NCBI RefSeq assembly: GCF_004118155.1
Contig: NZ_SAIQ01000001.1
Span: forward strand, 868,001 to 932,000
Reading direction: 5' to 3'
Source of the DNA: Edaphocola flava
GTDB lineage: Bacteria; Bacteroidota; Bacteroidia; Chitinophagales; Chitinophagaceae
DNA length: 64,000 nt
Of the stretch, positions 7,398 to 49,297 are shown in pieces. Both the position numbers and the translations under genes were made by a program. The notes beneath the pieces were generated by a model that was not told the origin of the DNA, made no database searches, and worked only from the letters and a program-made list of their open reading frames with translations. Every line of letters begins with the position of its first letter. Within the stretch, counting starts at the first letter, position 1.

Positions 7398-7443
7398 TAA
7401 AAAGGAATGGGTTGCAGCATATGCTGCAACCCATTCCTTTTTA
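7398..7443. terminator. Perfect palindromic terminator
   Basis: Arms of 23 bases, centred at 7420/7421, with an A-rich left and T-rich right flank. It begins 11 bases after the 74-aa gene stops. Being symmetric, it could also stop transcription arriving from the minus-strand M28 peptidase gene. Confidence 0.88.
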
Positions 7444-7481
7444 TAATAAATAAAATAACTATCCGCTATAAGCAACCTTTT

Positions 7482-7529
7482 TATTCGTCCTTTTGTCCGG
7501 CAACAAAAGGACCAAAAATGCCTTTGTTT
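7482..7529 (-). repeat. Short inverted copy of the 47.95-kb hairpin repeat
   Basis: The reverse complement of this 48-base segment equals 47946..47993 except for one base (position 7518). It contains a hairpin with 10-base arms (7487..7496 and 7503..7512) around a 6-base loop. It sits between the palindromic terminator and the M28 peptidase stop. See the entry at 47606. Confidence 0.85.
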
Positions 7530-7560
7530 CCTTTAAGTGGATGCTCAGTATAAATAATAT

Positions 7561-17616: not shown

Positions 17617-17677
17617 GTCCAGTATAGTACAGCAGAAAAATATTTTTCACTGTACTATACTGGACTTTTCTTTTTTT
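17617..17677 (+). terminator. Intrinsic terminator after pdxJ
   Basis: Perfect 16-base arms (17617..17632 and 17650..17665) with an A/T-rich loop, followed by a run of mostly T from 17666 to 17677. It begins 26 bases after the pdxJ stop. Confidence 0.92.
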
Positions 17678-17785
17678 ACGTCTTATATTTAGGAAATAAA
17701 ATAAAATATGCTTGAATTGATCTTTACAAATATGTAGCATTTCATATCGGATTTCATTTTTTTGATGTTTGCCAAAATCAGCGAC

Positions 17786-46688: not shown

Positions 46689-47522
46689 ATGAAAACGATT
46701 ATTGTTCCGGTAGATTTCTCTCATGCTTCTGTAAACGCTGCAGAGTATGCCAGTCAGATGGCCGGTCATATGCGGGCTGATAAAATAGTATTGTACCATA
46801 CCTATGGTGGTTCTTACCAGATCCTGGATGCCGGTACTGAGATTATTCGTTCTGAAATCAACTCCCAGTTACAACATCTTTCAGATGCATTGATTCCGCT
46901 TGCCGGAAATGACGTAAAATTTGAGCTGGTGGCCGGTGATGGTTTCCTGATAGATGAGATATTGGAACTGGTCGACAAATACAATGCTGACTTGATTGTG
47001 ATGGGTATAACCGGTAAAAATGCGCTTGAACATAAACTGATTGGCAGCAATACGCTGCGCGTGGCCAGCGATTCGGCCTGCCCGGTATTGATTGTGCCTT
47101 CGGAGGCCAGCTTTAAGGAAGTAAAAAAGGTAGCCTTGTCTATGAAGTTTAAGGCGGGTATACTTGATGAAACGCCTTATGACCATATCCGTAATATGAT
47201 CAAAGACCTGAATGCAGAGCTGGTGATCCTGAATGTTGCAGATGAAAGCCATAGGGTAAACCCGCAGAATATACAATCCGGTCTTACCGCGACACACATT
47301 ATGTTCGATGATATAAATGCAAGCATTGAGTTCCTGGGCGAAGATCGTGTTGTGGAAAGGGTTACGGATTATGTACAGCAGCATGAAGTTCAGATGCTGA
47401 TCTCGATAACCCATAAACTCGGATTCCTGGAATCCTTATTTAAAGGATCAGTAACCAAGCAACTTGCTTTTCACACTCATGTTCCACTAATGGTATTCAA
47501 AGCGATTCAACCGGAGGAGTAA
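46689..47522 (+). CDS. Tandem universal stress protein
   Basis: Protein of 277 residues with two UspA-type domains (about 1-145 and 150-275). The first starts KTIIVPVDFSHASVNAAEYASQMA and carries the ATP-binding pattern G-x2-G-x9-G-S (GITGKNALEHKLIGS), so it likely binds nucleotide. The second has a shortened, degenerate loop (HKLGFLESLFKGSVTK) and may not. Tandem USPs are often linked to stress or dormancy; no partner gene is near. A TTTGCG-rich region lies upstream, but the TA..TTTG spacing is not exact, so no promoter is called. Confidence 0.9.
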   Translation: MKTIIVPVDFSHASVNAAEYASQMAGHMRADKIVLYHTYGGSYQILDAGTEIIRSEINSQLQHLSDALIPLAGNDVKFELVAGDGFLIDEILELVDKYNADLIVMGITGKNALEHKLIGSNTLRVASDSACPVLIVPSEASFKEVKKVALSMKFKAGILDETPYDHIRNMIKDLNAELVILNVADESHRVNPQNIQSGLTATHIMFDDINASIEFLGEDRVVERVTDYVQQHEVQMLISITHKLGFLESLFKGSVTKQLAFHTHVPLMVFKAIQPEE

Positions 47523-47605
47523 TGCTGCGATGTTTCTTTAACTGAGTATCCACTTAAAGGAAACAAAAACTAATATTATGATTTAAATAGTCTATTTATA
47601 TCTTT

Positions 47606-47993
47606 TGGTACCTTTTGCCTTGATGCAAAAGGTACCGCCAAAAAATCAAGGCTTTATAAATCCCTGGCTAAAAATCAATGTGTCGGTCGGTCACAAACCA
47701 GACTCGCTACTCTCAGACAGTGGTTTCCGACTTAATCGACCGAGCCAATGATTTTATTAACGCCGGATTTATAAGGCCATTCTAAGCGATCTGTACTTGT
47801 ACGGATCGCTTGTTGTTTTCATCACAGCGATAGCCATTTTGGTTGGAGATGCGATCGTTGAGCAGCGAACGCATTACACGTTAAGCTCAGACGATCAATG
47901 CACGCAACGGTACAAAATGGCGGTGCAACGCAATCGCCTTGATGAAAACAAAGGCACTTTTGGTCCTTTTGTTGCCGGACAAAAGGACGAATA
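47606..47993. repeat. Train of hairpins (repeat-like structured element)
   Basis: A stretch of about 390 bases contains five hairpins in a row. A is 47607..47636 (12-base perfect arms). B is 47650..47778: outer arms 47650..47663 and 47765..47778, one mismatch, with further pairing inside. C is 47784..47811 (13 pairs, one G-U). D is 47815..47949 (10-base outer arms and partial inner pairing). E is 47963..47988 (10-base arms). The last 48 bases recur inverted at 7482..7529. One 65-codon frame runs through the second half (47797..47994) but ends exactly with the repeat, so I regard it as spurious. It looks like a multi-copy intergenic element, possibly transcribed. Confidence 0.72.
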
Positions 47994-48020
47994 GAATAGT
48001 CACCTACATGCGGATAATCA

Positions 48021-48081
48021 AGTTTACTTTATATAAAAATGGCACTATCACTGATAGTGCCATTTTTATATAAAGTAAACT
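48021..48081. terminator. Perfect palindromic terminator, 30-base arms
   Basis: The longest palindrome in the window: arms 48021..48050 and 48052..48081 pair perfectly around one base. It begins 5 bases from the stop of the repeat protein (minus strand), for which it is the natural terminator. Confidence 0.92.
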
Positions 48082-48085
48082 GTCT

Positions 48086-49222
48086 TTAGAATGTTTTTCC
48101 TTTATAGAATACTTTGTACATATTCTGACCGAAGCGGTACTGGATCACATCATAATCCAGTCTCCACTCTGCTACGGAAGCACTGGTCACATCAAAAATA
48201 TCGCCTTCGGTAAACACCCGCAGTACATTAGCCGTATTCACATAGGCCAGTGAGTTATAAGCCACCTTATAGGATTGCGGATAGTACGCATCCAGGGTAT
48301 AGATCTTTCCTTTGTAAAATACTTTAAAATAACCACTCGCATCCCTATAGGCCACTACATTATCTCCGACTTTATAATCAGGGTTAAAATAGCCTACAGT
48401 ATTGGTTTCTCCATTATAGAATATTTTAAAATAGCCGTCATTGCTTACATAAGCGACCAGGTTATCTCCGGCCTTATAACTCGTCGGAGTAAAAGATTCG
48501 AGCTCGGTAACCTCTCCTTTATAGAACACTTTAAAATTACGGTTGGCATCTACATACGGAACTACATTACGACCTACATCGAAGCTGGTAACAGTATAGG
48601 TTTCCAGTTCATTCAACTCGCCCTTATAAAAAACTTTAAAGCGATTGGCATAGTTTACAAATGCTGCGATGTTATCCGATACTTTTACAGAAGGCAACTG
48701 CCCGTCTGCAATGCTCAGGCCATCATTGACTACACTGGTATCAATGTCCAGGGTATTGCCTCCACCCAGGAAGGATTCAATCTCTACAATATTGCCACCG
48801 TAATATGCTTTGTACAGGGAGCGTACATTATCGAAGAACAACACTACACTATCTCCAACTGCATAGGTGGACATATAATTGGACAGTCTTGTTGTTGTAC
48901 CATTTTCCCATACAAACAGCGCATTGTTATTGCGATAGGCAACCAGGTTGTCTGTCACCTTAAAATCGGATGTAAAGCCCTGGTTGATCAGTTGTACGCC
49001 GCCTTTGCTGTAAATTTTAAAATTGCGGGTATTGTCCAGGTAAGGAATGGCTACTCTGCCTATATCATACCGAACCGGAAGCAGGCTTTCAATTTTACGG
49101 TCAATGCCATTATCCCAAACCATAAACTGGTTCTGAAAGTTGGTGTAAGCCGATACGGGTTGTGCCATTACTTTGCTGCCTATGCTGCATAAAATGGCCA
49201 GAAGCGTATAAACATATTTCAT
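48086..49222 (-). CDS. Secreted protein of ten 35-residue repeats
   Basis: Exported protein of 378 residues. Signal peptide (YTLLAILCSIGSKVMAQ), then nothing but a repeat of about 35 residues. Each unit opens with a motif like FKVFYKGE (variants FKIYSKGG, LFVWENGT, YKAYYGGN, FKIFYNGE, LRVFTEGD) and then runs ..LESFTPTSYKAGDNLVAYV.. . There are ten openings; the fourth unit carries an extra ~23 residues, and the last stops after YKVFYKGKTF. The regular Tyr, Phe, Gly and Val spacing suggests stacked beta-hairpins or a propeller. No T9SS domain or lipobox. Function unknown. ATG 49222 was chosen over 49285 so the signal peptide is N-terminal. Confidence 0.8.
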   Translation of the reverse strand: MKYVYTLLAILCSIGSKVMAQPVSAYTNFQNQFMVWDNGIDRKIESLLPVRYDIGRVAIPYLDNTRNFKIYSKGGVQLINQGFTSDFKVTDNLVAYRNNNALFVWENGTTTRLSNYMSTYAVGDSVVLFFDNVRSLYKAYYGGNIVEIESFLGGGNTLDIDTSVVNDGLSIADGQLPSVKVSDNIAAFVNYANRFKVFYKGELNELETYTVTSFDVGRNVVPYVDANRNFKVFYKGEVTELESFTPTSYKAGDNLVAYVSNDGYFKIFYNGETNTVGYFNPDYKVGDNVVAYRDASGYFKVFYKGKIYTLDAYYPQSYKVAYNSLAYVNTANVLRVFTEGDIFDVTSASVAEWRLDYDVIQYRFGQNMYKVFYKGKTF

Positions 49223-49297
49223 TATAAAAGGAAATTTTATAAGCAGTAAAGATAATCGAAATATTCCAGAATGCTTATAATGCATATGAGCAATATG

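Follow-up and report, generated by a model that had tools for sequence, protein, structure and literature searches.

We analysed a 64,000-nucleotide stretch of the Edaphocola flava genome (NCBI RefSeq assembly GCF_004118155.1, contig NZ_SAIQ01000001.1, positions 868,001 to 932,000), hereafter the window, and within it a hairpin-rich intergenic element. The element lies between an open reading frame (ORF) on the plus strand (46689..47522) and one on the minus strand (48086..49285). A preliminary description, made from the letters alone, had singled out 47606..47993 as a gene-free train of hairpins, and both parts of that statement hold: the interval lies in the gap between these two ORFs, and its predicted fold of −158.9 kcal/mol compares with −98.6 (sd 5.2) for 100 shuffled sequences (z −11.5), none of which folded as well. 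The opposite strand gave a folding z of −10.35. Those coordinates were too narrow, however, as the element with its end repeats occupies 47541..48022 (+ strand). It is a complete, 482-bp copy of a miniature inverted-repeat transposable element (MITE), a non-autonomous DNA transposon of Edaphocola that measures about 480 bp and is accompanied by many shorter derivatives formed by deletion.

As delimited by the family alignment, the element consists of a unit A, a small hairpin and an inverted unit B between terminal inverted repeats. The left terminal repeat (47541..47568, + strand; family consensus ACTGAGTATCCGCTTAAAGGAAACAAAG) and the right one (47999..48022, − strand; the family reads ACTGACTATCCGCATGTAG... 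going inward) are flanked by decayed target-site duplications (TSDs), TTTCTTTA at 47533..47540 and TTTACTTT at 48023..48030, the latter at the foot of an adjoining palindrome. Unit A (47605..47778, + strand) comprises hairpin 1 (CCTTTTGCCTTGATGCAAAAGG, 47611..47632, + strand), an A-rich linker and a long hairpin 2 with a conserved CTAAAA / CTTAACGC internal loop. The loop of hairpin 1, CTTGAT (47619..47624, + strand), is the complement of a downstream ATCAAG (47645..47650, + strand), its partner in a pseudoknot or an alternative hairpin according to the loop-tail covariation described below. The small middle hairpin (47783..47812, + strand) is followed by unit B (47815..47993, − strand), which is made of a second long hairpin and an end hairpin (CCTTTTGTTGCCGGACAAAAGG, 47965..47986, + strand).

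A 65-codon open frame does run through 47797..47994 (+ strand), as the preliminary description had pointed out, and its presence would suit a repeated small protein gene. The frame is intact in just 8 of the 55 copies aligned within the genus, one-base insertions and deletions being common, and it is therefore most unlikely to be a gene. The frame test refutes the small-protein explanation, to which we assign next to no probability, and the frame was not taken as a gene.

With up to 3 mismatches allowed, the window contains the pattern of the end hairpin twice, and 100 shuffles contain it not once. The final 48 bases of the interval first described (47946..47993) are found again, inverted and with 1 mismatch in 48, at 7482..7529, a recurrence that had been described as a partial copy. 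The recurrence is real; what lies there is a complete small element, a 96-bp internal-deletion derivative of the MITE (7454..7549, − strand) that keeps both ends and is bordered by a perfect 8-bp TSD, ATAAATAA, at 7446..7453 and 7550..7557. Perfect palindromes adjoin both window copies, at 7398..7443 and 48021..48081, as had been remarked.

A mobile element family in Edaphocola

Copies were compared among the window's genome (G000), E. aurantiacus (G001) and a further Edaphocola genome (G002); numbered stretches extracted from the genomes examined are labelled L001 and so on. At most 40 candidates were scored in the window's own genome, 11 in each genome of the Chitinophagaceae sample and 6 in each of the Bacteroidota sample, so that copy numbers are lower bounds. 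The core of the element is present at no fewer than 40 places in the window's genome (3.54 Mb, 15 contigs), 40 being the number scored among 91 first-look candidates, with 89–100% identity. An alignment of 30 loci with their flanks showed that similarity extends past 47606..47993 to the inverted ends ACTGAGTATCCGCTTAAAGGAAACAAAG on the left and ACTGACTATCCGCATGTAG on the right, which are imperfect inverted repeats. The end pattern, with up to 2 mismatches, gave 88 matches against 4 for the reversed pattern.

The 8-bp flanks to the left and right of the copies agree at an identity of 0.79, compared with 0.48 (sd 0.019, maximum 0.544) in 1000 re-pairings. This test used 60 of 88 loci from three genomes, 28 being left out for want of a recognisable end pair, and some of the 60 represent one ancestral insertion seen in two species. 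At other flank lengths from 4 to 12 the observed identity was much nearer the null and never above 0.47. Target duplications of the MITE are thus 8 bp long, and they are AT-rich. Full-length copies mostly measure 467–484 bp, with one of 515 bp that has a replaced segment, and derivatives span 96–295 bp; short derivatives with both ends include nine of 101–295 bp in the TSD set, another in L032 and the 96-bp copy in the window. The inverted ends, the 8-bp target duplications, the empty sites in a sister species, the high copy number and the lack of a conserved frame together identify the element as a MITE. This agrees with one of the possibilities first considered, a miniature mobile element.

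In E. aurantiacus, the sites of L002, L007 and L011, three copies from the window's genome, are empty. The copy at 47.5 kb is among those common to the two genomes, E. aurantiacus having the same site occupied (L071/L107). The simplest reading places movement of the family later than the separation of the two species and makes the window copy an older insertion. At L011 the target duplications, left TTAAGTAA and right TTACTTAA, are mutual reverse complements, and the empty site reads TTAAGTAA.

Insertion sites were characterised at 24 of the first 30 loci. Neighbouring ORF calls were convergent at 13 copies, tandem at 8 and divergent at 3, compared with 6, 12 and 7 of 25 intergenic gaps in the window. 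A terminator-like hairpin lay within 60 bp of 11 of the 24 copies, against a proportion of 0.135 among 460 random intergenic points in the window. These results are what would be expected if copies insert, or survive, at the AT-rich ends of genes, and such a preference would account for the terminators beside both window copies that the preliminary description had remarked on.

Outside Edaphocola, the MITE end pattern with 1 mismatch is found four times in G127 and five times in G199, genomes of another genus of the same family (g2). At one place in the latter (G199:C1:928493-928757) two end patterns face each other 265 bp apart.

A likely IS1595-family transposase partner

IS1595-family genes were scanned in five genomes of the genus. 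E. aurantiacus contains a 14,678-bp transposon (L159:87-14764) with identical 28-mer ends (ACTGAGTCTCCGCTTTTAGGAAACAAAG) and the TSD TAATTGAT on both sides; these ends match the left-end consensus of the MITE at 25 of 28 positions and differ at 3. Its transposase, encoded on the minus strand at L159:13645-14604, matches PF12762 (80.6 bits), PF12760 (29.6 bits) and NF033547 (187.1 bits), with both a DDE_Tnp_IS1595 domain and a zinc ribbon present, and the assignment to IS1595 rests on these protein domains, not on the ends. A second case is a 4,036-bp transposon in a genome of another genus of the same family (G125, L172:14806-18841), with the TSD TAATGCTT on both sides and the ends ACTGACTATCTACAT.TAG.CAACAAAA. 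With the ends of 40 MITE copies from the window's genome (62 distinct ones) as the reference, its two ends show 1 and 3 mismatches in 24; four shuffles of this 19.9-kb sequence gave 6–7 mismatches at best. The G125 transposase, about 50% identical to that of E. aurantiacus, is split by a frameshift; the transposase gene starts 158 bp inside one end in G125 and 160 bp in E. aurantiacus. From nearly the same ends and the same duplication length in the 14.7-kb E. aurantiacus transposon and its 4.0-kb relative elsewhere, we infer with good support that an IS1595-family DDE transposase moves the MITE in trans, recognising ends of the type ACTGA(G/C)TATCC...

Several other candidates were rejected as partners. 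The IS1595 element at G000:C9:11595 (L033:746-4964, about 4.2 kb, with passenger ORFs) is a nested insertion in a MITE copy, placed between that copy's left end and its core, and has, by eye, its own ends, GGCA.TAATATAC, and its own TSD, CTATTTAT. The IS1595 gene at G002:C1:765857 lacks convincing MITE-type ends, and ISBbi1 of a plasmid, which at 39.8% identity to the partner is the nearest named transposase in the plasmid collection, has no end pair within 700 bp. The Y1 transposase of the window's genome, its sole PF01797 gene, is not beside an element end and is flanked by other repeats. A pair of ends 3.3 kb apart (C1:732174-735456) was discarded as a full transposon; no transposase was seen between them, one end belongs to a separate short derivative (L032), and the enclosed genes are presumably PolX-like and sugar-dehydrogenase-like. 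An automatic search for ends with 7–8 of 8 TSD positions matching, around 16 IS1595 loci and 10 relatives, gave nothing convincing in the stretches examined.

Among the cargo of the E. aurantiacus transposon are a LuxR-type response regulator, an aspartyl-protease-like protein and a large protein whose match to a secretion tail is weak. A further cargo protein has a TIR domain (Pfam) and a weak, below-cut-off resemblance (NCBIfam) to a retron-associated TIR protein. The 4.0-kb transposon carries other ORFs besides the transposase, one with weak repressor-type matches below the cut-off. The same genome has a second facing pair of MITE-like ends (L172:5457-7722; 4 and 5 mismatches in 24), about 2.3 kb apart and with no obvious target duplication.

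A folded repeat shared across Bacteroidota

Compensatory changes between copies, which the preliminary description had named as a check, occur within the genus and across the phylum. The genus alignment held 55 of 58 loci (33 from the window's genome, 17 from E. aurantiacus and 5 from the further Edaphocola genome), with L114, L124 and L126 left out for too short a match. Its consensus fold has 101 pairs, 11 of them changed on both sides, compared with a mean of 2.3 in shuffled alignments (none of 500 as high). In the single-sequence fold of the window copy, paired columns vary at 0.033 and unpaired columns at 0.094, which is 2.8 times less (p 1e-8).

The left half of the interior, unit A, is a member of a repeat family of the Bacteroidota in which the stems change in sequence and stay paired. 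A match found in other genera, about 60 bases long, lay within a complete unit that had this architecture but other letters in its stems. The seed alignment comprised 8 sequences from 6 genera, among them unit A itself (L052); L061 was left out as misaligned, and L060, L063, L064 and L178–L180, which share hairpin 1 and lack the tail motif, were not used. In the seeds, 31 of 48 pairs are changed on both sides (13.6 when shuffled), and 88.5% of cells are paired, compared with 41–53% for slid structures. An exact hairpin pattern found 5 of 296 genomes across the phylum and was too strict, and a covariance model (R1) was used in its place. Unit A scores 145.7 bits with R1 (E 4.9e-40). At E<=1e-4, R1 matches genomes in 61 of 101 genera of the Chitinophagaceae sample (105 of 244 genomes) and in 51 of 171 genera of the Bacteroidota sample (103 of 395 genomes), the two samples overlapping in a few genomes, the window's included. 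Since a plain palindrome reaches 26.7 bits, and hairpin 1 by itself (L260) about 38 bits, matches were recounted by hand at E<=1e-10. This left 77 of the 244 genomes from Chitinophagaceae and 69 of the 395 from Bacteroidota, the latter from 16 family labels. In a control of 154 kb, made up of 39 loci chosen on other grounds, R1 scored 19.2 bits at best. The 26.7-bit palindrome lies in the window at 17617..17709 and is most likely a plain terminator.

A phylum-wide alignment was built from 59 chosen loci with E<=1e-15 (100 matches), and its 88 distinct rows were counted. In these copies, 913 cells are changed on both sides compared with 275.5 when shuffled, and 89.9% of cells pair, compared with 42–55% for slid structures. 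The seed structure was predicted on the seeds themselves and the 88-copy alignment was fitted to the model, so that both lean to the model; the slid and shuffled controls guard against this. The six-base loop of hairpin 1 exactly complements a downstream ATCAAG-like word in 69 of 82 copies (6 others had no readable tail), compared with a mean of 39.9 and a maximum of 51 in 10,000 shuffles, the main types being CTTGAT/ATCAAG, CTTGAA/TTCAAG and CTTGAC/GTCAAG. Unpaired motifs are conserved as well, namely the CTTGA loop, TCAAG, the CTAAAA / CTTAACGC internal loop and the AACTC...CTCA.ACAG apex. Units are about 165–230 nt long and are dispersed or clustered. Copies within a genome are nearly alike with sharp edges in G122 and G184, genomes in which the MITE end pattern is absent. 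The structured repeat family put forward in the preliminary description therefore exists, both inside the element and across the phylum, and the sequence neither stands alone nor folds like its shuffles.

Such covariation would be expected if the unit were a transcribed non-coding RNA or a 3'-UTR structure with a hairpin-loop pseudoknot, the MITE being merely its carrier. The compensatory changes in the seeds and the 88 copies agree with this, as does the A-rich linker with its loop-tail covariation, an arrangement that resembles H-type RNA pseudoknots, and 13 of 24 MITE copies lie between convergent genes, close to gene 3' ends. A higher content of G-U pairs is usual in structured RNAs, however, and here the G-T and A-C variants are about equal in number. 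In the genus, single changes away from Watson-Crick pairs comprise 38 types leading to G-U and 45 leading to A-C (p 0.51), with no strand preference, and the 88 copies contain 141 G-T pairs, 64 of them at one conserved pair, and 117 A-C pairs. Moreover, Rfam 15 at gathering scores has no match in the window or in 17 carrier loci. We regard the RNA explanation as unlikely: of the non-coding RNA family first suggested, the structured family with compensatory changes stands, and an RNA acting from one strand is not favoured by the G-T/A-C comparison.

The same symmetry between strands bears on a second explanation, in which the interior is inert and its palindromes are kept perfect without selection by template switching during replication, one arm being copied onto the other. 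Quasi-palindrome correction through template switching gives strand-symmetric, Watson-Crick maintenance, and the mostly Watson-Crick pattern seen here is what it would produce. Yet the conservation extends to the unpaired motifs listed above, and R1 matches at E<=1e-10 reach 16 family labels. An inert interior is improbable in our judgement.

In some genomes the units form same-strand clusters with start-to-start distances of about 310–350 bp in places (L256:3542-5242, L257:8632-9501, L258–L261). Clusters on one strand at about 330 bp, in several genomes, recall the attC sites of integrons, in which structure is conserved and sequence varies, and the units share this property. The five copies in L256 are separated by gaps of 128–263 bases with no ORF of at least 50 codons wholly within them, and the two clusters checked, L256 and L257, lie between ordinary genes with no cassettes (ORFs of at least 50 codons in L256 and at least 70 in L257). 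For these two clusters an attC-like identity is largely refuted, and for the unit in general it is very improbable.

In L178, L179 and L180, from other Bacteroidota families, hairpin 1 is combined with long hairpins without the CTAAAA / CTTAACGC loop and with the same closing AAGGCC; these are perhaps a sister type of the unit.

Interpretation

The explanation that we consider probable combines an Edaphocola MITE of about 480 bp, an IS1595-family mover acting in trans, and an interior half of which is a Bacteroidota folded repeat kept as folded DNA. IS1595-type ends may have captured one unit and a diverged inverted partner in Edaphocola, and an IS1595 transposase would then have spread the captured pair. 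A cellular or transposition protein might recognise the unit by its shape, as a hairpin or cruciform with loop-tail pairing. Maintenance as folded DNA is a weaker part of this proposal, hinted at by the about equal numbers of G-T and A-C variants.

Several observations weigh against the combined explanation. With respect to mobility, the empty sites in E. aurantiacus could instead be precise losses. At E<=1e-20 the partner transposase is unmatched in the window's genome, which keeps just a left-end remnant of the 14.7-kb transposon (L158, 240 bp, 93.3%), and more distant transposase relatives (40–41%; G176, G184 and G236) were without such ends in the stretches examined. The ends of the partner start with ACTGA and not with GG as in the related Merlin elements; GG ends are typical of IS1595 and not defining. 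With respect to the unit, one-sided changes in the single-sequence fold were pair-breaking in 107 types and pair-keeping in 45, with no clear pair-keeping excess, and the 41 of 48 pairs with changes on both sides across the phylum are a modest excess over 33.5 in shuffles. The E-values of R1 are rough and its low-scoring matches unreliable, given the scores of a plain palindrome and of hairpin 1 alone, and in unit B the likeness to R1 is confined to the end hairpin (20.7 bits), a weak resemblance to the model. In all 88 copies folding is more stable on the minus strand, for which strand symmetry alone does not account. The strand symmetry behind the folded-DNA proposal is itself weak, and replication-borne palindrome correction could yield it without selection. 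Finally, a search of 103 loci for an HUH-Y1 motif, and by tblastn with one Y1 gene, revealed no protein partner of the repeat family.

Taken alone, the MITE would add one more member to an established kind of element; the phylum-wide unit makes the finding a new variant and possibly more. Conceivably, although we hold this tentatively and with some doubt, the inner unit stands as a class by itself. It would be a mobile or regulatory element of the Bacteroidota as a whole that is recognised as folded DNA, either single-stranded or cruciform. What is inherited would then be the architecture and not the sequence. Such an element would depend on neither RAYTs nor integrases, and ordinary transposons such as the Edaphocola MITE could capture it. 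If the favoured explanation is correct, a substantial fraction of Bacteroidota genomes (69 of the 395 in the sample) carries a folded repeat without an Rfam 15 match. Something may read this repeat by structure, since its shape is conserved as its letters change. The Edaphocola family also offers a clean MITE with a likely IS1595 partner, and R1 lets the repeat family be annotated.

Comparison with known systems

Our literature searches found no earlier description of the Bacteroidota folded repeat. Bacterial MITEs as described in one account include RUP, NEMIS, ERIC, EFAR and Nezha and measure 70–300 bp (PMC3733652). The Edaphocola MITE resembles those described in its short inverted ends, lack of coding capacity, strong secondary structure and frequent position beside genes. 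It differs from them in its greater length, most full copies measuring 467–484 bp and the short derivatives 96–295 bp, and in an interior that belongs to an independent, phylum-wide structured repeat family. Within the Bacteroidota, MITEs have been described in Porphyromonas gingivalis (PMC4596501) and Cardinium (PMC9769881). For the partner, the zinc ribbon, the DDE_Tnp_IS1595 domain and the 8-bp duplications, AT-rich in the MITE, are shared with the IS1595 family, for which 8-bp duplications are described as usual (PMC8101967), and for ISApl4 they are described as preferably A/T-rich (PMC12561309). Besides its ACTGA ends, the partner differs from the IS1595 and Merlin elements so described in its 14.7-kb and 4.0-kb forms with further genes.

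The nearest published lead for the unit is subclass 2.6 of the TnpA_REP (RAYT) transposases, which is assigned to Bacteroidetes (PMC6006769). Like the repetitive extragenic palindrome (REP) and REPIN sequences described there, the units are dispersed folded repeats, several per genome and sometimes clustered. They differ from REP palindromes of 20–40 bp (PMC3733652) in their length, in their loop-tail pairing and in having no complete RAYT beside the copies examined. The unit could still be an unusual REP of such a transposase, moved as single-stranded DNA, and the window's genome does contain one Y1 transposase above the Pfam cut-off. No R1 match occurs in the 3.3 kb around this gene, however, and tblastn with it found just a fragment in L253, flanked by a different repeat. 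Nor was any HUH-Y1 motif present in the 103 loci carrying or resembling the unit, a search by one motif and one tblastn query that could miss diverged Y1 genes. We find a RAYT-borne unit quite unlikely, and the REP-like repeat of the preliminary description, in its standard kind, was not upheld as far as these searches go. The Y1 gene itself (L031:1318-1908), RAYT-like and the sole one found in the window's genome, is flanked by GC-rich inverted repeats (GCGCACGCGCCCTCGCGTGTGCC), and a sequence similar to these repeats recurs within the MITE copy L038.
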